From the IMG/VR virus record IMGVR_UViG_3300042465_001781, positions 1 to 61,730 of that record: DNA of 61,730 nucleotides, one strand, 5' to 3'. Within the stretch, counting starts at the first letter, position 1, and each line of letters begins with the position of its first letter. This document shows positions 2,302 through 58,258 of the stretch, piece by piece. The position numbers and the translations under genes are program-made. The stretch comes from a virus. The notes beneath the pieces were generated by a model. It saw only the letters and a list, made by a program, of their open reading frames with translations. It had not been told where the DNA came from and ran no database searches.

Positions 2302-2313
2302 TAACAGTTGTTA
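2302..2313. promoter_or_regulatory. TAACA-NN-TGTTA palindrome
   Basis: The core is TAACAGTTGTTA. It lies between two leftward genes: it contains the TAA stop of the upstream 285-aa gene and sits 8 bases before the next start codon. Confidence 0.75.
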
Positions 2314-3168
2314 GCTATGCGGCTCATCAAGAACCACGACGAACGCATTCACGCTGACTCGACAACCTATGCCAGTTACCACTTGCTCATTCTCAACAAG
2401 TTTCAACAAACCCAGCTTGCCGCGAATGTGTTCAGGGAGCGTATTATCATCGTAGAGTTGTACATTGTCACCTGTCTTAACGACATAATTTTTATCAACT
2501 ACGATAACCATAGACACTTTATTGTGGTCAAACGCATCCTTGACCCCCTCCACAGTCAGCATCTCAGTCTTGAGAACGTCGTTGTCCTGCATCAGTGCGA
2601 TGGTTGGGCTATCGTGCTGCTGCGTTAGATGCAAGGCGAACTGCACTGCCCCTGCGCCTCTAGCAAACTCAACCATCTTTGCGTTGATGCTGTAGTCGTT
2701 CCGCTCGATAGTCCGTCGCTTGTTCCTGACGGCAAGATCAAGAATCACAGCGGCTTTGTGTTCAGACGCATTCAGGTGCTCCTGTGCATCAGGTTTGCCG
2801 AACATCTTCTTGATAGTCTGCAACGCCTTCTTCGGGTCTGATGTGAACATCTCATTGCTACGCTCCATCTTCTTGCCTATGCGGTCGTTGCTTATGCAGA
2901 ACCCATCCTTGCCACGGTTGTAGCCATAGGAGATAGTGCCGAGGTCAACCCCATCGTGAGTCACCCTGAACTTAATGACGGTGATCTGTTCCCGATAGCT
3001 GCTTGTTTGCCAATTGTGGGTAGTGAAAGTCCACAGCGGGTTGGATGCAGCTACGCTGACAATAAGATCGTTCAACCCCACGCTCTTTGTACTCATGGTG
3101 TAGTCGGGGTGTTGCTTGCGACACTCGTCACTGACCACTACGTTCGTCATGCTAAATAGATTACTCAT
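2311..3168 (-). CDS. Early protein of unknown function (285 aa)
   Basis: A soluble alpha/beta-looking protein starting MSNLFSMTNVVVSDEC. It has a basic central part (RNKRRTIERNDY) and several beta-strand segments near the C-terminus (VSMVIVVDKNYVVK, VSVNAFVVVLDEP). A ribosome binding site TTAGGAG follows the palindrome at 3182-3193, so the right half of the palindrome contributes to the initiation region. It is one of the larger genes in the block around the MoxR and VWA proteins, which suggests a shared process, but no domain is recognised. Confidence 0.75.
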   Translation of the reverse strand: MSNLFSMTNVVVSDECRKQHPDYTMSTKSVGLNDLIVSVAASNPLWTFTTHNWQTSSYREQITVIKFRVTHDGVDLGTISYGYNRGKDGFCISNDRIGKKMERSNEMFTSDPKKALQTIKKMFGKPDAQEHLNASEHKAAVILDLAVRNKRRTIERNDYSINAKMVEFARGAGAVQFALHLTQQHDSPTIALMQDNDVLKTEMLTVEGVKDAFDHNKVSMVIVVDKNYVVKTGDNVQLYDDNTLPEHIRGKLGLLKLVENEQVVTGIGCRVSVNAFVVVLDEPHS

Positions 3169-3181
3169 TCTTCGTTACTCC

Positions 3182-3193
3182 TAACAATTGTTA
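3182..3193. promoter_or_regulatory. TAACA-NN-TGTTA palindrome
   Basis: The core is TAACAATTGTTA, fully self-complementary. It lies 13 bases before the start of the 285-aa gene. On the coding strand it runs directly into TTAGGAG, so a protein bound here, or an RNA hairpin, would touch the ribosome binding site. Confidence 0.8.
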
Positions 3194-3198
3194 ATTCA

Positions 3199-4053
3199 TC
3201 ACCACTGGAACTTGCCAAGAATCGCATCGACCTTGGCCTTGACTTCCTCGCGCACCACTGCGCTCTCCTTGATGGACTCGATGTTCGCGCACAGCATGGC
3301 CGACTCCAACTGCCGACGTGCTTCCTCCAGCTTGGGGTCGTTGGTCACGTTCATCTTGCCAAGCAACTCGCACAACTCAAGCGGGTTGGTAATCAGCGAA
3401 TCGAAGTACCGCTTCTTCTCGTCGTCACCTTCCTTGTCGGTGAGCTTCTCAGAGATACCCACCAGCATGGTGTGCAGTCGGTCCCACGGCGCTTTCATCG
3501 CGTCGGCGAGCCGGTCGGTGTGCTGCTTCTCGTATGAGACACGCAACTCTTCCAAGTCGGTAGCCGACACATCCAAGCGGAAGTCACCCGACTCAGGGAT
3601 AGGGTCGATAGCCCTGCGGAACCCGAACTTCTGCCGCACTGCATCAAGCTCAGGGTAGTCGTCTGCTCGGTACATCGTGCCCAAGTTACTGGGTGCTTCA
3701 GCAACCAGACGCGGATACTCAACGAAGAAGTTGTCGCACATGAACTCGAACGTCTGCTCGTACCCGTTCATCGTCTGCTTGTACTCCATGAACAACTTAG
3801 TCGGCAACAGGCGCTGACCCTTGTCTGCCCACGGTAATGTGTGCGTGTTGTGGTACAGGCGAACTCGCGCTGCGAACTTCTCGATGTCCTTGCGTAAGGA
3901 CGTACCCGCGAACAAATTCTTCTTGGTCTGCGATGCGTCACGCACTGCTGATGCTCCCGTATTGACTTGCTCAGTCATCTCCCGGTCGATCTTGCTGGCG
4001 GGCCAGACGCTGATGTTCAACTCAACTAACACTGCTGATGCGCTAATACTCAT
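3199..4053 (-). CDS. Early protein of unknown function (284 aa)
   Basis: It begins MSISASAVLVELNISVWPAS and is largely helical with many charged residues; the C-terminus (VVREEVKAKVDAILGKF) looks amphipathic. The segment SVWPASKIDREMTEQVN is similar in style to proteins that accompany MoxR-type ATPases in aquatic phages, but this is a memory-based impression. A GGAGAAATG start context overlaps the repeat cassette shared with the two next genes upstream. No enzymatic motif is visible. Confidence 0.7.
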   Translation of the reverse strand: MSISASAVLVELNISVWPASKIDREMTEQVNTGASAVRDASQTKKNLFAGTSLRKDIEKFAARVRLYHNTHTLPWADKGQRLLPTKLFMEYKQTMNGYEQTFEFMCDNFFVEYPRLVAEAPSNLGTMYRADDYPELDAVRQKFGFRRAIDPIPESGDFRLDVSATDLEELRVSYEKQHTDRLADAMKAPWDRLHTMLVGISEKLTDKEGDDEKKRYFDSLITNPLELCELLGKMNVTNDPKLEEARRQLESAMLCANIESIKESAVVREEVKAKVDAILGKFQW

Positions 4054-4054
4054 T

Positions 4055-4273
4055 TCATTTCTCCGTTAAAAGTTTAATAAATCCCATCGCCGCCACCTGA
4101 GCTTCATCTTGCGTGGCGTACTCAACCCCTACAGGTATTGCCCTGTAGTTAACAAATACAATCGCCCCAAACCCATCTCCACGGGGCCTAACTTTTGCCA
4201 TAAACTCCCAATCCAACCCAGTCTTTGAACGTACGTAAAAATCCTTAGCGGCGTCGTTGCCTACCCAGCCCAT
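4055..4273 (-). CDS. Small FIKLL-tail protein, copy 1 (72 aa)
   Basis: It ends AAMGFIKLLTEK, nearly the same as the end of its upstream neighbour (ALGFIKLLMEK). The body has beta-strand segments (GFGAIVFVNYRAIPVGVEY). The same 30-base stop/ribosome-binding/start cassette is found at 4051-4080 and 4271-4300 with three mismatches, so tandem duplication is likely. Function unknown. Confidence 0.7.
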   Translation of the reverse strand: MGWVGNDAAKDFYVRSKTGLDWEFMAKVRPRGDGFGAIVFVNYRAIPVGVEYATQDEAQVAAMGFIKLLTEK

Positions 4274-4274
4274 G

Positions 4275-4514
4275 TCATTTCTCCATTAAAAGTTTGATAA
4301 ACCCCAGTGCTGTCTGTCGGCCCATAACAACTGTTAGGGTCTTCGTAGCTAGGTGTGGTGTACTGTGATCGTCCTCCACCACAGCCCACCTATTGCCACC
4401 CACGTTCACTATCCCGTACTTCCGTATGGGAGTCCTCAAGTCCCTAAAGTCATCAATCGGGTCGTAGTCGTACTGCCAGATGATGCTGCTGTATGAAAAG
4501 TATTCGGACGCCAT
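4275..4514 (-). CDS. Small FIKLL-tail protein, copy 2 (79 aa)
   Basis: The protein begins MASEYFSYSSIIWQYDYD, is unusually rich in tyrosine, and ends ALGFIKLLMEK like copy 1. A palindrome (4325-4336) lies inside its coding sequence, where it encodes part of TLTVVMG. This could be the remains of an intergenic operator captured by an extended gene, or an internal regulatory site. Function unknown. Confidence 0.7.
   Translation of the reverse strand: MASEYFSYSSIIWQYDYDPIDDFRDLRTPIRKYGIVNVGGNRWAVVEDDHSTPHLATKTLTVVMGRQTALGFIKLLMEK
4325..4336. promoter_or_regulatory. TAACA-NN-TGTTA palindrome inside a gene
   Basis: The core is TAACAACTGTTA. This copy lies within the coding region of the 79-aa protein, about 50 bases before the downstream start, so it is less clearly an operator than the intergenic copies. 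Confidence 0.55.
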
Positions 4515-4515
4515 T

Positions 4516-4764
4516 TCATTTCCCCCCTAAAAGTTTCATGTAGTTCTTCATCTCTCGCTCATTCAATCGCCCTACCAACTGCCAACCATATCTATCGTAA
4601 ATAGTCCACTTCCCATGCTTGCGTCTGGCGTAGTGGTAGGTCTTGCCCTCGCCGTCCATAATCATTTCGTAAATGCTCTTGCCCTGCACACGGATAGAAG
4701 CCGCAAGATTTTTTACGTAGTGGTCGCTAATGTCCTTGAACACTTCTTCTTGTAAGCTACCCAT
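4516..4764 (-). CDS. Small FIKLL-tail-like protein, copy 3 (82 aa)
   Basis: The start MGSLQEEVFKDISDHY was chosen because a strong GGAGG lies six bases upstream. The C-terminus, MKNYMKLLGGK, resembles the FIKLL-EK ends of copies 1 and 2. The centre (GKTYHYARRKHGKWTIYDRY) looks like a short beta-sheet with aromatic residues. The cassette after its stop is a diverged version of the repeated start cassette. Confidence 0.7.
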   Translation of the reverse strand: MGSLQEEVFKDISDHYVKNLAASIRVQGKSIYEMIMDGEGKTYHYARRKHGKWTIYDRYGWQLVGRLNEREMKNYMKLLGGK

Positions 4765-4765
4765 A

Positions 4766-4987
4766 TCAATCCTCCGGCTTGCCCGCCAACTTCGCCATGC
4801 TATAAAGCTCGTTGCCAATCATCTTCGCGTCAAATGTTGAGTCGTTCGGCCACACATGGTGAGTGCTCTCGTTGCCCGAACGATATTTGTGTACGTACCG
4901 CTCGGCCTTCTCAAGAATCTCCAGCACCTGCACCGCGTCCTTAGTCGGCATCACATAGTTGGCATATCCCAATTGGACAATCATCAT
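4766..4987 (-). CDS. Small early protein (73 aa)
   Basis: It begins MMIVQLGYANYVMPTKDAVQ after AAGGGG, with the palindrome at 4999-5010 just upstream. The pattern NYVMPTKDAVQVLEILEKAE suggests a strand plus a regulatory-type helix. The long upstream extension of the same frame is discarded because it lies antiparallel within the VWA gene in the wrong frame. Confidence 0.65.
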   Translation of the reverse strand: MMIVQLGYANYVMPTKDAVQVLEILEKAERYVHKYRSGNESTHHVWPNDSTFDAKMIGNELYSMAKLAGKPED

Positions 4988-4998
4988 TTCTTTCCCCT

Positions 4999-5010
4999 TA
5001 ACAATTGTTA
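4999..5010. promoter_or_regulatory. TAACA-NN-TGTTA palindrome
   Basis: The core is TAACAATTGTTA. It lies 11 bases before the start codon of the 73-aa gene and runs into its AAGGGG ribosome binding site on the coding strand. Confidence 0.8.
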
Positions 5011-5024
5011 GCCTGTCGGCTGCA

Positions 5025-6272
5025 TTAGTCACGAACGTGGATGGTCTTGCCATGCTCAGCCACCATGTCACCGCCACCGACGATGGCCCAAAGAATCGGC
5101 GCAGTCCAGTCGCTACCCCAATCACTACCGACATACCCATCGGTGAGAACGATGATGCACTCAGGCTGAATGCCCTCTTCCTTGAGATACCTAGAGACAC
5201 AACTTGGGCTCGTGCCTCCGCCGCCTCGTGGCTTCGTTGAGTCGATGATGTTCGCCACATCCGCATCAGTGTATTTTTCATGTGCTGCTACCTCACAGTC
5301 CCAATAAATCAAGTCGATCACGTCAGGGTTAACTTCCTCGGCCACGCCCTTCACTTCGGACAGGAACTCAGCTATCTGCTGACCGCCTATGGAGCCTGAC
5401 GTATCCACAGCGATGACAACATGGCCCACCTTCTCACCGATCAAGCTAGGCATGTAGATGCCAGTCGAAAGATGCCGACGATTAGGCCGACGCCACGATG
5501 ACGCATCCTTGGCTCTGCACGTAGCCTTAACGAACTCACGCAGCACCTCACGCCAGTTGACCCTCGGCTCCATCAACTCGGCAAGCTCTCGGTCCATACC
5601 ACCAGCGCTGCCACCTGCACGCTTGTCAGCCATCAAGCCCTGACGAATTGCTTGGTCGATGTCACGCTCAAGCTCCTTGGCTTCGGCCTCGGTCATGTTC
5701 TTAGCGCCTTCCCAGTCGTGCTCGTCAAGCCCACCATCACCACCTTCGCCGCTCCCATCGCTAGGCTCACCGCCTTCGCCGTCACCGTTACCACCACCGT
5801 TACCCTTGTCTTTCTGCTCCTGCTTGAGCAGGTCAAACACTTGTTTGGTGTTCATGCCGCGATACTTCTCATCGACCAGACCGATCTGCTTGCCGATGTT
5901 TGGACCCTCACGGAAGACAGGCATTGCGATGATCGAACCAGCCGGATCAAGGTCTTTGAGCATCAGGTTAATAACGTAGTCACAAGCCTGATTGGCAAGC
6001 TGATGATTCTCATCGTGCAGCTTCTTCCACGTAGTCAGGTGGCGATACATCTTGTGCGATGCTTCATGCGCGATAAGAAACGCTAACTCTGTGTCTCTTA
6101 GCTTAGCCACAAATCCACGGCCATACACCTCGTCACGTCCGTTAGTCTTAGCAGTCGGCGTAGTCTCATCGACTCGCGTTGTGCCTACCATCAACACACC
6201 AGACAGCAGTGCGAACTTGGGGCTGCGCATCAAACTGATCTTGGCTTTCTGTACTCGTCGTTCTTCTAACAT
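5025..6272 (-). CDS. Metallopeptidase-like plus von Willebrand factor A protein (415 aa), MoxR partner
   Basis: The N-terminal half carries HEASH at residues 69-73 in LIAHEASHKMYRHL, matching the putative metallopeptidase domain of the DUF2201_N family. A low-complexity Gly/Glu/Asp linker follows (about 155-185). The C-terminal part is a VWA-like domain with the metal-binding DTSGSIG motif at 290-296 (DxSxS) and LTDGYVGSD further on. VWA proteins of this type pair with MoxR ATPases, and a MoxR gene lies two genes upstream. The ATG lies inside the palindrome at 6267-6278. The pair probably acts as a chaperone or remodelling system on a host or phage protein; the target is unknown. Confidence 0.88.
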   Translation of the reverse strand: MLEERRVQKAKISLMRSPKFALLSGVLMVGTTRVDETTPTAKTNGRDEVYGRGFVAKLRDTELAFLIAHEASHKMYRHLTTWKKLHDENHQLANQACDYVINLMLKDLDPAGSIIAMPVFREGPNIGKQIGLVDEKYRGMNTKQVFDLLKQEQKDKGNGGGNGDGEGGEPSDGSGEGGDGGLDEHDWEGAKNMTEAEAKELERDIDQAIRQGLMADKRAGGSAGGMDRELAELMEPRVNWREVLREFVKATCRAKDASSWRRPNRRHLSTGIYMPSLIGEKVGHVVIAVDTSGSIGGQQIAEFLSEVKGVAEEVNPDVIDLIYWDCEVAAHEKYTDADVANIIDSTKPRGGGGTSPSCVSRYLKEEGIQPECIIVLTDGYVGSDWGSDWTAPILWAIVGGGDMVAEHGKTIHVRD

Positions 6273-6278
6273 TTGTTA
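6267..6278. promoter_or_regulatory. TAACA-NN-TGTTA palindrome containing a start codon
   Basis: The core on the coding strand is TAACAAATGTTA, and its central ATG is the start codon of the VWA/metallopeptidase gene. A GGAG lies just upstream of the palindrome. Confidence 0.8.
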
Positions 6279-6283
6279 GCTCC

Positions 6284-6631
6284 TTAAATTTTTCTATGTT
6301 GATACATGGCTTTAGTGAAAGCCTTAATCTCTTCCTGCCTCGCCGCGAACTTATCCTTAGCCATGCCTAGCAATAGGCGCAGCATCCCCGTCACCTCCTT
6401 CACATCGGTGTACTCACCTAGTACGTTCCTGTCAGGAGTAGCAAGAGCGGTATTTCTATTGCCCCACTCGATGATTGTGAATCTGACAACACCCCCTCCG
6501 AACATGCTCCGCTCAAGCACTACTTGAATGCTTGAGTTGGGTGTCGCGTACGTACTTAGTTGTTTCTGCAAGTACTCGACCTCCTCAAGCCCCAAGGGCC
6601 ATTGCTCTTTGGCTATCGGTGCGTATAACAT
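6284..6631 (-). CDS. Early protein of unknown function between MoxR and VWA genes (115 aa)
   Basis: The protein begins MLYAPIAKEQWPLGLEEVEYL; the ATG lies inside the palindrome at 6626-6637. The centre has beta-strand character (SIQVVLERSMFGGGVVRFTIIEWG) and the C-terminus is helical (MAKDKFAARQEEIKAF). Its position between the MoxR ATPase and the VWA protein makes it a candidate third subunit or adaptor of that system. No family is recognised. Confidence 0.7.
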   Translation of the reverse strand: MLYAPIAKEQWPLGLEEVEYLQKQLSTYATPNSSIQVVLERSMFGGGVVRFTIIEWGNRNTALATPDRNVLGEYTDVKEVTGMLRLLLGMAKDKFAARQEEIKAFTKAMYQHRKI

Positions 6632-6746
6632 TTGTTAGGCTCCACGTGATTCGTTTGTCCATGCGCTTGCGCTTGGTCCAGTAAGGCAACGCCCACTCCA
6701 CGTTGCTCTCCACTACGATCAACCGCCCGTTAAAAAAGACTCTCAC
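6585..6746 (-). CDS. Possible small overlapping gene after MoxR (53 aa)
   Basis: A GTG start overlaps the MoxR stop codon (GTGA) and reads MRVFFNGRLIVVESNVEWALP, a plausible strand-rich protein. The frame runs 47 bases into the next gene before stopping. Without it there would be about 110 unused bases after MoxR, unusual for this arm. The overlap makes it less certain than its neighbours. Confidence 0.4.
   Translation of the reverse strand: MRVFFNGRLIVVESNVEWALPYWTKRKRMDKRITWSLTNVIRTDSQRAMALGA
6626..6637. promoter_or_regulatory. TAACA-NN-TGTTA palindrome containing a start codon
   Basis: On the coding strand the core is TAACAAATGTTA; its ATG starts the 115-aa gene. It also lies inside the possible overlapping 53-codon frame. 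Confidence 0.75.
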
Positions 6747-7807
6747 AGCAGGTCTTGGTTCTTAGCAACCCACCCTGCGAACGCCTTGCTTGAGAACGCA
6801 ATGCTCTGCTTGCTCGTAGTCTTCGCCACGTTGATGGCAAACACCGCCTGCCACTCGGCCTCGAACCGCTCCAGATACTCCATGAACGGCGCGATGGTGT
6901 CCTTAGTGATACGCGATATCGCACCGAACACAACGATGGCACACGCGCCCGGACTTGTCGGTACTTTCGTACCCTTTGGGTCTTTGATGGTGTCGTCCCA
7001 CGTTGGGAGTTGGTCGGCGAACTCGATGTACGCCTGCATATCACGCGCACCGCTCTCGCCCAGTGCACCAGTCAACGCCGCGATCACTGCATCTGAGTCG
7101 TTAACCGCACGGGTCTTGACGATGTTCGATGCCGTCTCCAATGACCGTGGACTAACAAATGCTAGTTGGTTGCGCTTGGGGTTGTAGATGTACGGGTTGT
7201 CGGCCTGTGCTGCATCGGTGTAGCTTGCCAGTACGTGCGGATACTGGCTCACCCACGCACACACCTCGGGCGCTACGTCCTTACTGATAGCCCAGCTAAT
7301 CCACTGCTCAGCGTCTGGCTTCTGAATAGTCACCGGAACCAGTCGGTTGCGACTGTGCGCCTTCAAGCTATCGCCCACGCCGTCAGTGCTCAAGTTGCCC
7401 GTCAAAAACACAATATTCTGCTCGTGCAGTGAAATGTCACCCAGCCGTGGATTGGCCTTCTCAAGCATGGGGTGCAGCATGTTCTTCACTGGCTCAGCGC
7501 CTTTGGTGAACTCGTCGAGCATGATGACCAGTGGTTTCTTCTCGTGAATCTTGAACCGAGCGTTCGGGTAGTAGCGCGTGGTCTTGGTGTCGTGATCGAT
7601 CACCGGCATTGCAATGTCACCCAAGTCCATATTGGGTACGTCGATATAGGCATGGTCGAAGCCTAAGTCACCAGCGATCTGCTCTAACAGTGAAGACTTG
7701 CCGATGCCGGGCTCGCCTTGCAATAAGAACCGCAGGGTTGGGTTGGTGCGGATAAGAACACCCGCTTGCTTCAATGTCACCGACTTGCCAAACTTGATCT
7801 CAGCCAT
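6743..7807 (-). CDS. MoxR-family AAA+ ATPase (354 aa)
   Basis: Residues 31-39 (GEPGIGKSS) are the Walker A motif and residues 92-99 (PLVIMLDE) the Walker B motif. FLTGNLSTDGVGDS and SRNRLVPVTI match sensor and arginine-finger regions of MoxR-type AAA+ ATPases. Such proteins use ATP to remodel partner complexes and pair with VWA proteins, here encoded two genes downstream. The start at MAEIKFG was chosen because TTAGGAG lies eight bases upstream; the first ATG, nine codons earlier, lies in the palindrome at 7829-7840. It is the first gene behind the strong leftward promoter at 7902-7930. Confidence 0.9.
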   Translation of the reverse strand: MAEIKFGKSVTLKQAGVLIRTNPTLRFLLQGEPGIGKSSLLEQIAGDLGFDHAYIDVPNMDLGDIAMPVIDHDTKTTRYYPNARFKIHEKKPLVIMLDEFTKGAEPVKNMLHPMLEKANPRLGDISLHEQNIVFLTGNLSTDGVGDSLKAHSRNRLVPVTIQKPDAEQWISWAISKDVAPEVCAWVSQYPHVLASYTDAAQADNPYIYNPKRNQLAFVSPRSLETASNIVKTRAVNDSDAVIAALTGALGESGARDMQAYIEFADQLPTWDDTIKDPKGTKVPTSPGACAIVVFGAISRITKDTIAPFMEYLERFEAEWQAVFAINVAKTTSKQSIAFSSKAFAGWVAKNQDLL

Positions 7808-7828
7808 CTGATTACTCCTAATTGCGCC

Positions 7829-7840
7829 TAACATTTGTTA
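7829..7840. promoter_or_regulatory. TAACA-NN-TGTTA palindrome
   Basis: The core on the coding strand is TAACAAATGTTA. It lies in the 5' untranslated region of MoxR, 21 bases before the chosen start and about 60 bases downstream of the -10 box. Its ATG is an alternative in-frame start for MoxR. Confidence 0.8.
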
Positions 7841-7901
7841 GGACTTTACTAACACACAAAAAAATAAAAACACTCGGACACATCTAACCTACTCAACTTA
7901 T

Positions 7902-7930
7902 ATTATAACACATTGTTACACCTAGATCAA
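7902..7930 (-). promoter_or_regulatory. Leftward sigma70-type promoter P1 (MoxR)
   Basis: On the minus strand a TTGATC box (7925-7930) and a perfect TATAAT (7902-7907) are separated by 17 bases. The spacer ends in GTAACAATGTGT, and together with the -10 box this gives TAACA-NNN-TGTTA, a palindrome like the operator but with a 3-base centre. About 55 bases here are very similar to promoter P2 at 10330-10358. Confidence 0.8.
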
Positions 7931-7970
7931 TAGGAGGTCTCATTTCTAGTCATCGCCGATGACTAAGTGG

Positions 7971-7982
7971 TAACAATTGTTA
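7971..7982. promoter_or_regulatory. TAACA-NN-TGTTA palindrome
   Basis: The core is TAACAATTGTTA. It lies 8 bases after the end of the 342-aa gene and about 40 bases upstream of the -35 box of promoter P1. Confidence 0.75.
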
Positions 7983-7990
7983 GCGCTCTT

Positions 7991-9019
7991 TTATGCCAGT
8001 TCTTCGTACGCGCTCTTTAGCCAACTCATGTACTTGCGCGAACCCAACTCACCGAGGGGCAAGTCCACCCGCCGTATCGCCTCGTCGCTGTGCCACTTGT
8101 ACAGAACCTCCAGCATGTTCTTGCGTATGGCTACGGCTGAACATGCGATATTGCCACCCTGTGTCCGTTGCTGAACGCCTGACAGTGCACACATTAGCAT
8201 GAACGCCCCATAAAAAGAGGTGTGCTGCTTGTCGCTCGTGTCCGATATAAGGGCGATGAACTTAGTCACCGCGAACGAATAGTCGTTCCTGCTTCTGTCG
8301 TCCAAGCAACGGGCGAACTGATACACGCTACGGGGTGAGTTAATCGTTATCTCCATACCACCAGCTACGCTCTGCACTAATTCCCCCTCGGTGAACTTCA
8401 CTATCTCGCTGCCGTTGGCTTGGCCCCAATACCGCCCGTCAGCCTTCTCCTTGCGCAGTGCCACCATGCTGCCAAAGTACTTGATGAACTCGGCATAGCG
8501 TCGGCGAATTGCACTCGTGCCTGTTCGGTTAATCTCCAGCCTGTACTGCGGCTCACCATTGAGCACCTCGTACTGCCAGTATCTATTCCTGCGCATGAGC
8601 AGGGAAGTGGAATCCAAACTGTTTGAGCCCCGTGGGATTTCAAACCTGCCGTTGGCTGCGTGCAGCACCGTTGCCCCCTCGTGAGTGCTGACGCTAACAT
8701 TTGTTAGCCTACGAATGAACGCATGGGTGCTCTGTGTCACATACCCACCATCACGCACCGCTACAACGCCGTCGAACCTGAACCTAACCACGGTTGTGTT
8801 GTACAGCACGCAGTTGTATGACGGCTTGCACTCTCCATCGCTGCCGCCCTTGTCGTTCATCCAATGGCTCTTCGTTATGCTGAACCTATTAATGTCCCTG
8901 CGCTCACCCAGCGGTTTGCTGTGCTCACTGCGCCCACGGATGTGCTTAGTGTTCTCAAAGAACTTCTCTGCTGCGGCGTAGTCGGCGATAGTCGCCATTC
9001 TGTCTGTTGCTTTGCTCAT
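7991..9019 (-). CDS. Early protein of unknown function (342 aa)
   Basis: It begins MSKATDRMATIADYAAAEKFF and is rich in arginine and serine. Strand-like segments (VVRFRFDGVVAVRDGGYV) precede a helical C-terminal third (YSFAVTKFIALISD, MSWLKSAYEELA). It belongs with the two ~285-residue proteins as a large early protein of unknown role near the MoxR/VWA genes. A palindrome (8695-8706) lies inside it. Confidence 0.75.
   Translation of the reverse strand: MSKATDRMATIADYAAAEKFFENTKHIRGRSEHSKPLGERRDINRFSITKSHWMNDKGGSDGECKPSYNCVLYNTTVVRFRFDGVVAVRDGGYVTQSTHAFIRRLTNVSVSTHEGATVLHAANGRFEIPRGSNSLDSTSLLMRRNRYWQYEVLNGEPQYRLEINRTGTSAIRRRYAEFIKYFGSMVALRKEKADGRYWGQANGSEIVKFTEGELVQSVAGGMEITINSPRSVYQFARCLDDRSRNDYSFAVTKFIALISDTSDKQHTSFYGAFMLMCALSGVQQRTQGGNIACSAVAIRKNMLEVLYKWHSDEAIRRVDLPLGELGSRKYMSWLKSAYEELA
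8695..8706. promoter_or_regulatory. TAACA-NN-TGTTA palindrome inside a gene
   Basis: The core reads TAACATTTGTTA on the plus strand. It lies within the coding region of the 342-aa gene (residues around RRLTNVSVS), far from a start codon. Confidence 0.5.
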
Positions 9020-9031
9020 TTCATTCTCCCT

Positions 9032-9181
9032 TTATGCCATCTCGTATATCTTCACTCTCTTGAGGCTCGGGTATAGGCAGACGAACTTCTCCTTGGCCGT
9101 CACCCTGCTGCGTGCCTCAACCATGTCGGTCTCCCAGCGCTTGAACCGCGCACTCCAGCCGACTACTGCGTATCGCTTCAT
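9032..9181 (-). CDS. Small basic early protein (49 aa)
   Basis: It begins MKRYAVVGWSARFKRWETDM and ends YPSLKRVKIYEMA, with a GGAG six bases before the ATG. It is strongly basic and could bind nucleic acid. The stop lies shortly before the 342-aa gene. No family assigned. Confidence 0.6.
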   Translation of the reverse strand: MKRYAVVGWSARFKRWETDMVEARSRVTAKEKFVCLYPSLKRVKIYEMA

Positions 9182-9396
9182 AGGATTCTCCCCAGCTTGT
9201 TGCACACAAAGACCTTCATCGCTGCCATCGCTTGCTCATCCTTGCCCATGTGCAGCAGGTCGTAAATCTCACGGATACTGAGGTCGTCCGCAAGGCTTTC
9301 GCAGGACTCTGAACCCCGCTCGGCTAGCTCGTCGCGTAGCTCTCCATCAGAGAACTGACTGAGGTCTACTTCCACTTCTACAGTTACGTAGCTCAT
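9178..9396 (-). CDS. Small acidic early protein (72 aa)
   Basis: The start MSYVTVEVEVDLSQFSDGEL was chosen because AAGGAG precedes it; the longer frame overlaps the upstream gene. It is very acidic (GELRDELAERGSESCESLADD), followed by a helical C-terminus. The pattern resembles short acidic early phage proteins that may mimic DNA, but this is only a composition argument. Confidence 0.65.
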   Translation of the reverse strand: MSYVTVEVEVDLSQFSDGELRDELAERGSESCESLADDLSIREIYDLLHMGKDEQAMAAMKVFVCNKLGRIL

Positions 9397-9581
9397 GCTT
9401 TCTCCTTCATTAGTTTCTTGAATTGGTGCATAACGCTGTGCCTCCCCTTGGCGATGAACTCGTAGGTTGCTGGTTGGCTTTTGCCCCAAGAGTTGAACTC
9501 CTTCTCTTGAACAACGGCTAACTCAACAGAGTTAGAAAAGAACACACGGCACAGCACCCATACATCAGTCTTAAGGCACAC
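9393..9581 (-). CDS. Small early protein, GTG start (62 aa)
   Basis: A GTG preceded by GGAGG starts MCLKTDVWVLCRVFF. The C-terminus (VMHQFKKLMKEKA) resembles the FIKLL-EK ends of the proteins encoded at 4.05-4.77 kb, so it may be a distant paralogue. The stop overlaps the next ATG. Confidence 0.6.
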   Translation of the reverse strand: MCLKTDVWVLCRVFFSNSVELAVVQEKEFNSWGKSQPATYEFIAKGRHSVMHQFKKLMKEKA

Positions 9582-9642
9582 TTGCTTCCTCCAACTCGCG
9601 TACCTTGTCCCACTCAGCGGCTTTGTATTCTTCCCATGTCAT
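9571..9642 (-). CDS. Possible mini-gene (23 aa)
   Basis: A GGAG seven bases upstream of an ATG opens MTWEEYKAAEWDKVRELEEA, a short charged helix. The stop overlaps the next gene by 11 bases. It could be a real microprotein or a translational coupling leader for the next gene. Confidence 0.4.
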   Translation of the reverse strand: MTWEEYKAAEWDKVRELEEASVP

Positions 9643-9657
9643 GTCGTTGCTCCTTCC

Positions 9658-9873
9658 TTAACAGTTGTTAATTGCTGCGGCCAGAGTCAGCAACTCGGGG
9701 TCGATTAACTCCGGCTCACCAAACGCACCCATGTCGTTGTCCAGCAGGGCCAGCAACTCAGCAAACTCGCCCGATACCTCCTCGGCCAGTGATACATCAG
9801 GCTCATCACCCAGCAGCACCTGTGCGGCTAACTCTTGGGCGCGTTCCAACATAGCGGTAAGTCTTGTTTTCAT
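9658..9873 (-). CDS. Small acidic helical early protein (71 aa)
   Basis: It begins MKTRLTAMLERAQELAAQVL after AAGGA and is strongly acidic (EEVSGEFAELLALLDNDMG). The C-terminal codons for INNC and the stop are made by the palindrome at 9659-9670, so coding and regulatory information coincide. Function unknown. Confidence 0.65.
   Translation of the reverse strand: MKTRLTAMLERAQELAAQVLLGDEPDVSLAEEVSGEFAELLALLDNDMGAFGEPELIDPELLTLAAAINNC
9659..9670. promoter_or_regulatory. TAACA-NN-TGTTA palindrome
   Basis: The core is TAACAGTTGTTA on the plus strand. It overlaps the last codons of the 71-aa gene and precedes the AAGGAAGGAG region of the mini-gene. Confidence 0.7.
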
Positions 9874-9887
9874 TTTGTGTCCTTAGA

Positions 9888-9899
9888 TAACAGTTGTTA
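9888..9899. promoter_or_regulatory. TAACA-NN-TGTTA palindrome
   Basis: The core is TAACAGTTGTTA on the plus strand. It lies 14 bases before the start codon of the 71-aa acidic gene and just upstream of its AAGGA ribosome binding site. Confidence 0.8.
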
Positions 9900-9903
9900 G
9901 GTC

Positions 9904-10134
9904 TTACGACCGAGTTGATTTCTGGTTTGTGTCCAGCAGGGTTGTGCGTGCTGCTGCGGTTGTGACGAATTGGTAGTTACCCTTGGTGTACTCCTGCACC
10001 ACGCACCATGAGGCGCGTTCGGCTTTGGCTCGGTCTTCACCGCAGAACAGGCAACAGCGATAGCCCAGCGCCCAGCGCTCGACGGGGAACTCATCACCGC
10101 AGTCGGCGCACTCTTTCCAGTCCATGTTGCCCAT
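9904..10134 (-). CDS. Zinc-ribbon-like early protein (76 aa)
   Basis: The protein contains CADCGDEFPVERWALGYRCC and a further CxxC (CLFCGED), a four-cysteine ribbon pattern. The start MGNMDWKECADCG at 10134 has GGAGG eight bases upstream; an ATG six bases earlier (10140) overlaps the previous stop as ATGA and is also possible. It may be a DNA- or protein-binding adaptor. Confidence 0.65.
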   Translation of the reverse strand: MGNMDWKECADCGDEFPVERWALGYRCCLFCGEDRAKAERASWCVVQEYTKGNYQFVTTAAARTTLLDTNQKSTRS

Positions 10135-10136
10135 CT

Positions 10137-10244
10137 TCATGCCCTCCAGAACCAGATATCCAGACCGGCCACGATGAGGCACACGGCATAGATGAAGTAC
10201 AGGATGCGCTGGGCGGGGTTTAAGTTTGGTAGTTTGTCTGACAT
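10137..10244 (-). CDS. Mini membrane protein (35 aa)
   Basis: It reads MSDKLPNLNPAQRILYFIYA and continues as one hydrophobic span (VCLIVAGLDIWFW). It is the first gene behind promoter P2 and the palindrome at 10267-10278. A single-pass inner-membrane microprotein is likely. Function unknown. Confidence 0.55.
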   Translation of the reverse strand: MSDKLPNLNPAQRILYFIYAVCLIVAGLDIWFWRA

Positions 10245-10266
10245 TTTGTGTTTCCCTTGGTATGCC

Positions 10267-10278
10267 TAACAACTGTTA
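10267..10278. promoter_or_regulatory. TAACA-NN-TGTTA palindrome
   Basis: The core is TAACAACTGTTA. It lies in the transcript leader of promoter P2, about 22 bases before the first start codon. Confidence 0.8.
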
Positions 10279-10329
10279 GGGCTGCTGGATTCGGGCGCAG
10301 TGAGTCCGCTTTTTTCCCATCCAACTTAT

Positions 10330-10358
10330 ATTATAACACAAAGTTATGTCTAAATCAA
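10330..10358 (-). promoter_or_regulatory. Leftward sigma70-type promoter P2
   Basis: On the minus strand TTGATT (10353-10358) and TATAAT (10330-10335) are 17 bases apart. The spacer ends CATAACTTTGTGT, as in P1 and P3, and the flanking 20-30 bases are also similar to P1. It would drive the small genes at 9.2-10.2 kb. Confidence 0.8.
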
Positions 10359-10700
10359 TAGGAAGTCCCATTTTTAGCGATGGGCAATGACCAAAAGGGA
10401 TGTTACGAAATGGGGGCAGGGATTGTTATAATGTTACGCTTGACATTGTAAAACATAACAGAATATGTAACAAAAAGAACCCAGCATCCATGCGGGTTGC
10501 GGGGCGAAAATTGATGTATTGTTATAATGTTATATGATTTATAAGAAAGAGAGAGCCAGCCCAAAAAAGTTGCGTAATACAAATTGCGCTTGCTGCCTTG
10601 CGCGGCGCTTCAGATTTGACAGTGTTGGCGCTCTCAATTTCAAAATAAAACGTAACATGTAACAATAGGGGTTAAGTCGTTGATTTCATTGAAGAAAGTG

Positions 10701-10759
10701 TGTTACGAAAGTTTTTTGGCTTTGTAACATTGCCCCAAAACTGCCCAACTTTCGTAACA
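10701..10759. repeat. 13-bp perfect inverted repeat
   Basis: TGTTACGAAAGTT (10701-10713) is the exact reverse complement of AACTTTCGTAACA (10747-10759). The 33-base loop contains a GTAACA half-site. It could be a protein-binding site or an origin hairpin. Confidence 0.75.
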
Positions 10760-10762
10760 GAC

Positions 10763-10774
10763 TAACAAATGTTA
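10763..10774. promoter_or_regulatory. TAACA-NN-TGTTA palindrome
   Basis: The core is TAACAAATGTTA. It lies in non-coding DNA directly after the 13-bp inverted repeat, with no gene start nearby. Confidence 0.7.
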
Positions 10775-10847
10775 CATTCTGGATTTGACAATACCAGCAG
10801 TAGGGGTTAATTTAGAACATAACAATATAACAGTCCGACGACGATTT

Positions 10848-10883
10848 TGGCCGCTGACGCCGCCCGGAGAACTGGTATACACC
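10848..10883. repeat. 36-base direct repeat, copy 1
   Basis: It starts TGGCCGCTGACGCCGCCCGG and ends in GGTATACACC. It matches copy 2 at 35 of 36 positions. It is GC-rich within an AT-rich region. Confidence 0.85.
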
Positions 10884-10906
10884 GACTACTCAAGCATCCA
10901 GAAGCA

Positions 10907-10942
10907 TGGCCGCTGACGCCGCCCGGAGAACTGGTATAGACC
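10907..10942. repeat. 36-base direct repeat, copy 2
   Basis: It has the same sequence as copy 1 except one base (GGTATAGACC at the end). The copies start 59 bases apart with a unique 23-base spacer, and a palindrome follows at 10948-10959. It may be an iteron-like origin element or a protein-binding site. Confidence 0.85.
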
Positions 10943-10947
10943 AGCCC

Positions 10948-10959
10948 TAACAAATGTTA
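10948..10959. promoter_or_regulatory. TAACA-NN-TGTTA palindrome
   Basis: The core is TAACAAATGTTA. It lies 5 bases after the second 36-base repeat in non-coding DNA. Confidence 0.7.
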
Positions 10960-10983
10960 GGTCGGTCGAGAAAATCCGGACAC

Positions 10984-11006
10984 AAAAAAGCCCGCATAAA
11001 GCGGGC
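10984..11006 (-). terminator. Leftward intrinsic terminator
   Basis: GCCCGC and GCGGGC (10990-10995 and 11001-11006) form a 6-bp stem, followed in the leftward direction by six T residues. It is the second of two tandem terminators behind the 170-aa gene. Confidence 0.85.
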
Positions 11007-11019
11007 AGGTGCGGGCACG

Positions 11020-11041
11020 AAAAAACCCGCCGAAGCGGGTT
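11020..11041 (-). terminator. Leftward intrinsic terminator
   Basis: In the leftward direction AACCCGC-TTCG-GCGGGTT forms a tight tetraloop hairpin followed by a run of T residues. With the terminator at 10984-11006 it isolates the 170-aa gene as a separate transcript. Confidence 0.88.
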
Positions 11042-11050
11042 AGTGAAGAC

Positions 11051-11062
11051 TAACATATGTTA
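11051..11062. promoter_or_regulatory. TAACA-NN-TGTTA palindrome
   Basis: The core is TAACATATGTTA. It lies between two hairpins downstream of the 170-aa gene, so it is not near a start codon. Confidence 0.6.
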
Positions 11063-11078
11063 GGGGGCCGAAGCCCCC
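11063..11078. other. GGGGGC-CGAA-GCCCCC hairpin
   Basis: A 6-bp GC stem with a stable tetraloop directly after the stop of the 170-aa gene. The same 16 bases occur at 50137-50152. There is no T-run on the leftward side, so it may protect or process RNA instead of ending transcription alone. Confidence 0.65.
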
Positions 11079-11085
11079 TCCCGTT

Positions 11086-11598
11086 TTACTTGCCGCTGTC
11101 GATCATGGACAAGTCCATTCCAAACGCTGTCAGTGCTGAGCTAACATGAGTCAGAACCTGCGACTGTTTATCGCTCAGACTATCCTGACGCTTCAGGAAT
11201 TTGTACAGTGGCACCAGCGTATCCACAATACGAACATCAGCGGACTTGCCGTGCTTTGCGCCACCCTCAGATTCCGGGGCAGTACCAAACATGGCCTCAT
11301 TCCCGTATTTGCGAACCCGTGCCCATACTGTAGAAGGGTTCGGGTGCTTGCCATTATGGTGCGCTGCGTGCAGTGCTTTATAGAACAACTCTTTCTCAGC
11401 CTTGACCAACTTACCCGCGTCGCTGATGTCATTTGCTTCGAAGGCAAACCATTCCGTCACGAATGACTCATTTAAGACCAGAGCATAGTTACGCTCAGAC
11501 GATGCAGTCGCGCCGGACTTATCGGCCACCTCTTGGCGGGCGGCGGCGATAGCGGTGAGGTCAAATGGGATAGCACTAGAGACAATGGATACTGACAT
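11086..11598 (-). CDS. First leftward early protein, unknown function (170 aa)
   Basis: It begins MSVSIVSSAIPFDLTAIAAA after AAAGGG. It has a central basic, histidine-rich helix (FYKALHAAHHNGKHPNPSTV) that could bind nucleic acid, and a helical C-terminus. It has its own promoter (P3), a palindrome upstream and tandem terminators behind it, so it is transcribed as a single-gene unit next to the divergent region. This place is typical for an immediate-early regulator, but no known DNA-binding domain is evident. Confidence 0.75.
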   Translation of the reverse strand: MSVSIVSSAIPFDLTAIAAARQEVADKSGATASSERNYALVLNESFVTEWFAFEANDISDAGKLVKAEKELFYKALHAAHHNGKHPNPSTVWARVRKYGNEAMFGTAPESEGGAKHGKSADVRIVDTLVPLYKFLKRQDSLSDKQSQVLTHVSSALTAFGMDLSMIDSGK

Positions 11599-11653
11599 GA
11601 TACAAACCCTTTCAAGGTTTTATACTCGGGGACAATTCCCTTTGTATGACTGT

Positions 11654-11682
11654 ATTATATCACACAAAGTTATGTAATGCAA
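11654..11682 (-). promoter_or_regulatory. Leftward sigma70-type promoter P3
   Basis: On the minus strand TTGCAT (11677-11682) and TATAAT (11654-11659) are 17 bases apart. The spacer contains CATAACTTTGTGT, the same element as in P2. It drives the 170-aa gene; the palindrome at 11712-11723 lies 29 bases upstream. Confidence 0.8.
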
Positions 11683-11711
11683 GCAAAGCGGGGGACAATA
11701 AATAAAGGGCA

Positions 11712-11723
11712 TAACAATTGTTA
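11712..11723. promoter_or_regulatory. TAACA-NN-TGTTA palindrome
   Basis: The core is TAACAATTGTTA. It lies 29 bases upstream of the -35 box of promoter P3, in an activator-like position. Confidence 0.75.
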
Positions 11724-50165: not shown

Positions 50166-50405
50166 TTATTGGGTCTTCTTCAGGCGGGGGAGCATCCGCT
50201 CAATCGCTATTGCATGTGCTTGGCTCGGGGTTGTTGCACCCCAGAACCAGTTGTATATCGTCGCTCGGCTCACGTTGAACCTCGCAGCAATTACATTCAC
50301 AGGAATATCGAGCGCGATGCACTTACGCCCAAGGAGTACACCCCACGATTGCTCATCGGCTTCTTTGTTAGCTTCGACCAATCGTTGGCTGTATCCGTAG
50401 CTCAT
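50166..50405 (-). CDS. Cro/C1-type helix-turn-helix regulator (79 aa)
   Basis: LGRKCIALDIPVNVIAARFN followed by VSRATIYNWFWG is a helix-turn-helix with the recognition helix at about residues 45-56. Its size is that of Cro-type dimers. It lies in the replication block downstream of the ssDNA-binding gene. It is the best visible candidate for a protein binding the TAACA-NN-TGTTA sites, but nothing proves this. Confidence 0.8.
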   Translation of the reverse strand: MSYGYSQRLVEANKEADEQSWGVLLGRKCIALDIPVNVIAARFNVSRATIYNWFWGATTPSQAHAIAIERMLPRLKKTQ

Positions 50406-51718: not shown

Positions 51719-51838
51719 CTAATGCTCCTAACAATTGTTAATGGGTGTGAGCGGATGTTGGTCACATAAAGCAGTGTTTGCTTCAACCATGAAAGGAAAC
51801 CTACAACGGCGCTAACCCGTTACCCAACATCCACTCAC
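51719..51838 (-). promoter_or_regulatory. Structured 5' leader of the ssDNA-binding operon, with short upstream frame
   Basis: In the leftward transcript the first bases (from 51838) pair with 51761-51747 to form a 15-bp stem with one G-U pair, enclosing about 62 bases. Inside, AACGG and CCGTT can form a smaller hairpin. A 20-codon reading frame starts at 51790 (MVEANTALCDQHPLTPINNC) and ends within the palindrome. This could be an attenuator or RNA element; no known riboswitch is recognised. Confidence 0.5.
51729..51740. promoter_or_regulatory. TAACA-NN-TGTTA palindrome
   Basis: The core is TAACAATTGTTA. It lies 11 bases before the start codon of the 138-aa gene, at the end of the structured leader, and runs into TTAGGAG. 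It is one of only two copies seen in the right-hand part of the leftward arm. Confidence 0.8.
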
Positions 51839-57504: not shown

Positions 57505-58050
57505 TTAAACTTCTTTGCCGAACTCAAGGCGGTCGGCGACCAGCTTGGCGTACCCTGCGATATCAACCCAGCTATCAGCGTAGTCAGGGTCACCGTTCAC
57601 GATGCGGCCCAGCTTGTGGCAGATCATGTCGAGGGCTTCGGCTTGGTCAAGAGCAAACGACTTGTCGTGGCGAACAGCGTGTTCATGCAAAACGCGCTTG
57701 AGTTTCTGCGTGAGGGTAGCGTGGTCAATAAACTTGCCGTACTTGCTGCCTCGCTCGGCCAGTGTTGCGTCGATACCTTCAAGTGCCTTCGGTGCAGCGG
57801 TGCGGTCACGGCCTTGGGTAGCTTTGAACACCAACTCCTCCATCTCTGCCGTGGTCATTTTTGTCGCGGTATCAATAGATGTGTTGGAGCTAACAGTTGT
57901 TCCGGTTTTCCAATCGTCTTTCTTCATCTTCCCTTTGATCGTGCAGACGTAGGCATAAGACGCTTTGGTGGCCGCGCACACATCACGCAGGGTCGCGTTC
58001 GGGTTCTTGGCAATGTAGTTACGGACGGTTTGTGCTTTAGATTTTTTCAC
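57505..58050 (-). CDS. DUF6378-like protein with N-terminal HTH (181 aa)
   Basis: The N-terminus (VRNYIAKNPNATLRDVCAAT, KASYAYVCTIKGKM) looks like a helix-turn-helix. The C-terminal domain, from ERGSKYGKFIDHATLTQKLK to EALDMICHKLGRIVNGDPDY and DSWVDIAGYAKLV, matches the DUF6378 pattern common in phages. A near-palindrome TAACAGTTGTTC (57891-57902) lies inside. A DNA-binding regulator or nucleotide-handling role is possible. Confidence 0.75.
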   Translation of the reverse strand: MKKSKAQTVRNYIAKNPNATLRDVCAATKASYAYVCTIKGKMKKDDWKTGTTVSSNTSIDTATKMTTAEMEELVFKATQGRDRTAAPKALEGIDATLAERGSKYGKFIDHATLTQKLKRVLHEHAVRHDKSFALDQAEALDMICHKLGRIVNGDPDYADSWVDIAGYAKLVADRLEFGKEV

Positions 58051-58258
58051 TTGGGTTTCCTTGGTTGGTTATGTTGTTAACGTAGTCGGCAAGAATTTCT
58101 CTGATCTTGGCTTGCTTCGAGTGAGGGTGGTGCTTAGCCAAATAGTCCAGCACCTCCTTCGGTAGTCGCAAGCTCACGCATACAAGAGTAGGCTTCTTGC
58201 TAGGGCCTCTTCCTTTGCGCTTCTTCTCTGGCTTCAAAAACTCAATCCCTGTTGTCAT
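58037..58258 (-). CDS. Ribbon-helix-helix or BrnA-like small protein (73 aa)
   Basis: A basic N-terminus (KPEKKRKGRGPSKKPT) is followed by a strand and two helices (LVCVSLRLPKEVLDYLAKHH, SKQAKIREILADYV), the layout of ribbon-helix-helix DNA-binding proteins. It is a second candidate for a phage regulator. It overlaps both neighbours. Confidence 0.65.
   Translation of the reverse strand: MTTGIEFLKPEKKRKGRGPSKKPTLVCVSLRLPKEVLDYLAKHHPHSKQAKIREILADYVNNITNQGNPSEKI

Follow-up and report, generated by a model that had tools for sequence, protein, structure and literature searches.

Which proteins does a phage bring together around a MoxR ATPase and its von Willebrand factor A (VWA) partner, and on what would such a set act? 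This question is raised by the IMG/VR virus record IMGVR_UViG_3300042465_001781, which we analyzed over its full length of 61,730 nucleotides (nt; positions 1 to 61,730, hereafter the window). The original prediction, made from the letters of this DNA, had described a MoxR-type AAA+ ATPase, a protein joining a metallopeptidase-like domain to a VWA domain, an intervening protein of 115 amino acids (aa) and three large unknown proteins of 284, 285 and 342 aa as one block of early genes. All six open reading frames (ORFs) are indeed present, on the minus strand and at the coordinates listed below. The MoxR-VWA pair itself is already known in phages, which had been overlooked; new is the 284-aa protein as third core partner, and with it the three-part composition and the sharing with plasmids. 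We consider it an even proposition that the three proteins act as an early-expressed MoxR/VWA-zincin/DUF3150-like machine of mobile DNA, which would remodel a host or DNA-metabolism complex and would not be confined to virion building.

The three core genes and their companions in the phage family

The core of the block consists of the following features:

6743-7834, minus strand: MoxR-type AAA+ ATPase, 363 aa, N4 gp24-like (Pfam and phrog_1297 matches)
7694-7717, minus strand: Walker A motif GEPGIGKS, residues 40-47
7511-7528, minus strand: Walker B motif VIMLDE, residues 103-108
5025-6272, minus strand: DUF2201_N zincin-like metallopeptidase with VWA domain (metal ion-dependent adhesion site, MIDAS), 415 aa, N4 gp25-like (phrog_1314)
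6054-6068, minus strand: HEASH (HExxH) motif; H69, E70 and H73 invariant
5391-5405, minus strand: MIDAS motif DTSGS (D290, S292, S294), completed by T354 and D378
3199-4053, minus strand: 284-aa core partner, remotely DUF3150-like, with plasmid and cyanophage homologues next to MoxR and VWA or between them

Both Walker motifs of the ATPase are intact, as predicted, and together with the sensor and arginine residues and the Pfam matches to AAA (E=6e-6) and AAA_5 (E=1e-5) they place it in the MoxR class of AAA+ proteins. It matches phrog_1297 (E=2e-47), and its profile matches the AAA domain of Midasin. Residues G43, G45, K46, S47, D107, E108, N147, R164 and R230 are invariant among 20 homologues, N4 gp24 included. 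Matches were obtained in 379 phage records, many of them N4-like. An alternative start is possible at M10; the first ATG lies within one of the palindromes described below.

The predicted fusion of a metallopeptidase-like with a VWA domain was also confirmed. Pfam identifies DUF2201_N ('putative metallopeptidase', E=1e-31) and a DUF2201 VWA-like domain (E=2e-14) in the 415-aa protein, which matches phrog_1314 with E=6e-94 and belongs to the DUF2201_N family with 110 bits for PF13203 (cut-off 23) and an HExxH motif. HEASH is followed by H78 and N94-x-A-x-D98-x-x-x-N102, and DTSGS, GGGT and TD form a complete MIDAS, so that MoxR has the adjacent MIDAS-bearing VWA gene that defines a MoxR-VWA pair. 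The HExxH motif, the N-A-D-N motif and the MIDAS are retained in 11 of 11 aligned homologues from phages, plasmids and cyanobacteria (a VBP32 gene, which aligned at 19% and lacked the motifs, was the wrong gene and was left out of this comparison). This conservation argues that both the zinc site and the MIDAS are functional. In the structure model the VWA half resembles the MIDAS domain of Midasin (8ql1, E=3e-4), with a NorQD entry among the weaker matches, and the zincin half gave no fold match in the PDB. For the DUF2201_N family, no report of proteolytic activity was found in the literature searched.

The VWA protein matches 776 phage records, many of them N4-like. The name of phrog_1314, 'HNH endonuclease', was rejected for it: Pfam gives the zincin-like and VWA domains and no HNH. 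The same label, or else 'homing endonuclease' or 'DNA repair ATPase', is attached to this metallopeptidase-VWA protein in many phage entries of GenBank, which is an apparent annotation error. The pair ranks among the core genes of hundreds of phages and is often mislabelled in databases under the first of these names.

Four further genes of the neighbourhood, or groups of genes, accompany the core:

2311-3168, minus strand: 285-aa protein, fast-evolving, always 3' of the 284-aa gene within the phage family
6284-6631, minus strand: 115-aa protein between MoxR and VWA, with homologues in 21 of 80 relatives
7991-9019, minus strand: 342-aa protein upstream of MoxR, weakly conserved and lineage-limited
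4055-4273, 4275-4514, 4516-4764 and 4766-4987, minus strand: four small ORFs between VWA and the 284-aa gene

The position of the 115-aa ORF between the MoxR and VWA genes is as predicted. Co-occurrence was analyzed in IMG/VR relatives, members of an uncultured phage family known from metagenome contigs alone. The nearest DNA polymerase in cultured phages is 38% identical to that of this phage, which has no close cultured relative and is not filed in Schitoviridae. Seeding on VWA gave 80 loci, in which we found the 284-aa gene 79 times, the 285-aa gene 79 times, MoxR 74 times, the 342-aa gene 33 times and the 115-aa gene 21 times, in one gene order and on one strand. In the loci lacking MoxR, VWA lies at most ~0.7 kb from the contig edge. 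When the 284-aa gene served as seed, MoxR and VWA were present at all 34 loci that reach 5 kb upstream, with the 342-aa gene upstream of MoxR in 29 of these 34, and the 285-aa gene at all 70 loci that reach 1.5 kb downstream. Seeding on the terminase, a sampling that does not presuppose the module, recovered MoxR and VWA at all 20 loci that extend 8.9 kb upstream and the 284-aa gene in 13 of them; in the other seven, VWA is near the locus edge and the position of the 284-aa gene falls outside.

Family members are ~54-90% identical to the window in MoxR, VWA and the 284-aa protein and ~18-48% identical in the 285- and 342-aa proteins. Co-occurrence and identity ranges therefore define three slow core genes (MoxR, VWA and the 284-aa gene), one fast but constant companion (285 aa) and two optional genes (342 and 115 aa). 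The six genes had been predicted to form one system, and within the family this holds for the 284- and 285-aa genes and fails for the 342- and 115-aa genes. A Pfam scan yielded no match above cut-off for the 115-, 284-, 285- and 342-aa proteins, in agreement with the earlier description of the three large ones as unknowns. DarA_N was considered for the 342-aa family and rejected, as two of 25 members reached E=0.014, which is not significant.

The third partner and related systems outside the family

In cyanophage MinM2 and on plasmids of Rhodovastum, B. vietnamiensis G4 and Simplicispira, the 284-aa profile matches (E 1e-40 to 2e-50) an ORF that either separates MoxR from VWA or lies next to them. 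A homologue together with MoxR/VWA is also found on Cupriavidus and Variovorax plasmids and on one Bryobacterales contig. Altogether, 41 plasmid records contain a homologue, 16 of them typed conjugative; its place next to MoxR/VWA holds for the plasmids inspected. Only three isolated phages carry the gene, and a search of genome contigs with a single plasmid 284-like protein returned two loci. On the Burkholderiales megaplasmids pBVIE02 and pRK1-1 all three proteins are homologous to those of the window, but the 284-like gene takes the middle position (MoxR-284-VWA instead of MoxR-VWA-284). These megaplasmids have no homologues of the 285-, 342- and 115-aa proteins, which were found at none of the loci checked outside the family. 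Since MoxR, VWA and the 284-aa gene alone remain linked there, the six genes are not one system; these three form a transferable core.

Because the module is also carried by plasmids, its job is probably useful to mobile DNA in general and not only to particle building. A third conserved subunit common to plasmids argues that the target is something shared by phage and plasmid establishment; it identifies the exact three proteins of the putative machine and offers a testable handle.

The name of the third partner needs care. Database annotation calls the homologues of MinM2 and Cupriavidus 'DUF3150', and the window protein has no PF11348 match and is not a member of this family. An hhalign comparison of the 284-aa profile with a single true DUF3150 protein was collinear over 181 columns with E=0.084, not significant alone. 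As the protein stays below the PF11348 cut-off, we therefore call it DUF3150-like. DUF3150 was not mentioned in the literature searched.

Several known systems resemble parts of the module. In N4 (gp24/gp25, Schitoviridae core) the same two families, phrog_1297 and phrog_1314, occupy neighbouring genes in the same order and at nearly full length, and the window has them likewise in neighbouring genes; identity between the two pairs is 18-33%. The next gene after the N4 pair encodes dCTP deaminase, and in phage nACB1 the pair adjoins helicase and DNA polymerase genes. Genes 24 and 25 of N4-like phages are core and middle-transcribed (PMC4193335). Group 2.2 jumbo phages encode a MoxR and metallopeptidase-vWA pair of the same architecture, in which an N-terminal metallopeptidase precedes the vWA domain within one protein (Iyer et al., 2021; PMC7824862); the passage on this pair does not mention a third partner.

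A looser parallel is provided by the IncA plasmid pRA1 (L164, 14829-22294), where an AAA_5/CbbQ ATPase, the Red-type recombination genes bet and exo, a true DUF3150 protein and a CobT-like VWA protein are encoded in one run. Like the window, pRA1 combines AAA+, DUF3150(-like) and VWA proteins in one locus, but its AAA+ and VWA proteins are of different subfamilies, the latter matching CobT and lacking a DUF2201_N match. The DUF3150 protein of pRA1 is remotely alike to the 284-aa protein, and no alignment between the two VWA proteins was detectable. The pRA1 triad is therefore a parallel for which homology throughout is not established; it links AAA+/DUF3150/VWA sets to DNA recombination genes. 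Tentatively, and with less than even confidence, we suggest that phages and conjugative megaplasmids, with pRA1 as a parallel, share a distinct class of mobile-element machine for the establishment, replication or recombination of incoming DNA, of which the DUF3150-like protein would be the hallmark subunit.

RavA-ViaA, NorQ-NorD and Midasin also pair a MoxR-class ring with a VWA/MIDAS partner, as in the window, but in a different gene context. According to the abstract of a cryo-EM study of the MoxR-VWA pair NorQD, force is exerted on the VWA protein, and characterised MoxR-VWA pairs are described as cofactor chaperones (PMC13036017). The module might accordingly insert a cofactor or metal, as the chaperones NorQD and CobST do, to mature a phage or plasmid metalloenzyme; the conserved HExxH site, which could carry a metal, and the CobT match of the pRA1 VWA protein can be cited for this. 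We regard this as very improbable for the phage module: its VWA protein does not match the CobT models (neither CobT nor CobT_C is among its Pfam matches), which sets the pair apart from CobS-CobT chelatases, and no partner metalloenzyme gene was recognised beside the module in phages or plasmids.

Possible modes of action

In the proposed remodelling machine, the proteins would assemble into one complex. MoxR would form an ATP-driven AAA+ ring on which the VWA protein docks as an adaptor, binding the client or the ring via its Mg-binding MIDAS. By analogy with NorQD, the ring may exert a pull or a torsion on the VWA protein or its client, and the zincin HExxH domain may cut or grip whatever is drawn in. 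The 284-aa DUF3150-like protein would be a dedicated third subunit or client adaptor, and the 285-aa protein probably a fast-evolving, family-specific accessory. The job would most likely fall soon after entry, when a host or DNA-metabolism complex would be remodelled or processed by proteolysis.

A number of points weigh against this proposal. Early expression is deduced from promoter type and strand alone, and the literature searched yielded no interaction, activity or client for this module. Unlike the window, the loci of N4, VBP32 and nACB1 lack the third partner: a profile search detected no 284-aa homologue at these loci or at the pSYSA locus, nor at the Acinetobacter pRBH2-3 locus, and its absence at N4-type loci means that it is not needed by every MoxR-VWA pair. 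The Cupriavidus homologue scores 22.1 bits against PF11348, below the cut-off of 24.9, and PF11348 reaches E=5e-4 in one of 23 phage relatives of the 284-aa protein, whose fold model is poor (pLDDT 70) and has no PDB match. Plasmid and phage copies may also have diverged in their job. Finally, virion assembly with processing of structural proteins was proposed for the homologous jumbo phage pair, and an archaeal virus MoxR-VWA pair cited in the same source assembles tails (PMC7824862).

These last two cases suggest a virion-assembly chaperone, in which MoxR-VWA would help tail or capsid proteins to fold or assemble, with structural proteins being trimmed by the zincin domain. The universal presence of the module in this phage family and the core status of the pair in N4-like phages (PMC4193335) would fit such a role. 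However, the MoxR-284-VWA module is found on conjugative plasmids, which make no virion, so that a purely virion-assembly role is unlikely. In the window, the module is located in the non-structural arm on the strand opposite the terminase and structural genes, with two sigma-70-type promoters, and the N4 pair is middle, not late (PMC4193335). Strand, promoters, middle timing in N4 and plasmid carriage lower the virion hypothesis, which we consider unlikely for this phage, though it may hold for some phages. The expectation that the block matters to infection is borne out insofar as the module is conserved enough to matter and is read, from host-type promoters, in the direction opposite to the terminase and structural genes.

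Phages and conjugative plasmids face the same defences, and a module common to both could alternatively serve as a counter-defence or host-takeover protease, whose ring would extract a host defence or nucleoid protein for destruction by the zincin domain. The invariant HExxH is in agreement with this, and the variable neighbours (the 285-, 342- and 115-aa genes and the small genes) resemble a fast-evolving host-interaction zone. The three core proteins, however, evolve slowly (54-90% identity), unlike typical anti-defence genes, and no known anti-defence family was matched, which makes this explanation improbable. An anti-phage defence system was rejected as well, PADLOC giving weak P-loop matches only.

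Promoters, palindrome and small early genes

The regulatory features of the early region comprise the following elements:

7902-7930, minus strand: sigma-70-type promoter TTGATC-N17-TATAAT (10/12), directly upstream of MoxR
10330-10358, minus strand: further promoter TTGATT-N17-TATAAT, nearly identical to the first, upstream of the early block
6267-6278, no strand: palindrome TAACANNTGTTA, overlapping the VWA start codon
6626-6637, no strand: palindrome, overlapping the start codon of the 115-aa gene
7829-7840, no strand: palindrome, overlapping the first MoxR start codon
3182-3193, no strand: palindrome that touches the Shine-Dalgarno sequence of the 285-aa gene, just upstream of this gene
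50166-50405, minus strand: 79-aa helix-turn-helix (HTH) protein, weakly matching a phage repressor family (E=0.001)
58037-58258, minus strand: 73-aa ribbon-helix-helix (RHH)-like protein, small DNA-binding candidate

The palindrome TAACA-N2-TGTTA occurs in 18 copies in the window, compared to 0.04 expected from mononucleotide shuffles, and the spacer of the promoter at 7902-7930 contains TAACA-N3-TGTTA. All six genes had been described as sharing the palindrome or its promoter; we find the palindrome at the starts of the VWA, 115-aa, MoxR and 285-aa genes and not at those of the 284- and 342-aa genes. The relatives show the same pattern: the palindrome overlaps the VWA start codon in 54/70 (offsets -5 to -7) and precedes the MoxR start by at most 60 nt in 54/60, and it is rare at the starts of the 284-aa (12/81) and 342-aa (2/41) genes. 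In CTAACA-Nk-TGTTAG the arms are constant among relatives (L001-L163), and the spacer k of 1, 2 or 3 nt is mostly fixed per genome, with 1214 sites of the dominant spacing versus 67 others in 102 loci and two spacings mixed in some genomes. One lineage (L053, L056, L057) has CTGACA-N2-TGTCAG in place of the usual half-sites.

From its sequence pattern, the palindrome looks like a conserved phage-wide operator or the mark of a stoperator regulon; the arrangement resembles the stoperators of mycobacteriophage L5. The 79-aa HTH and 73-aa RHH-like proteins, both kept in 17/17 long relatives, are candidates for the putative palindrome-binding regulator. Palindromes near early-gene start codons were also observed across window positions 2302-11723 and at 51729 and 55795. 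A further copy inside the 342-aa gene (8695-8706) carries the ATG of a putative overlapping 99-aa ORF (8401-8700) in another frame.

The original prediction did not mention the small genes, at least four in number, that separate VWA from the 284-aa gene. The two proteins nearest the 284-aa gene (4055-4273 and 4275-4514) share the C-terminal motif GFIKLLxEK and are significantly alike (0/200 shuffles). Similar F-x-KLL-x-EK ends, with borderline likeness, were noted in the early proteins 2081-2293, 4516-4764 and 9393-9581, and the small early proteins with this ending possibly form a small paralogous family.

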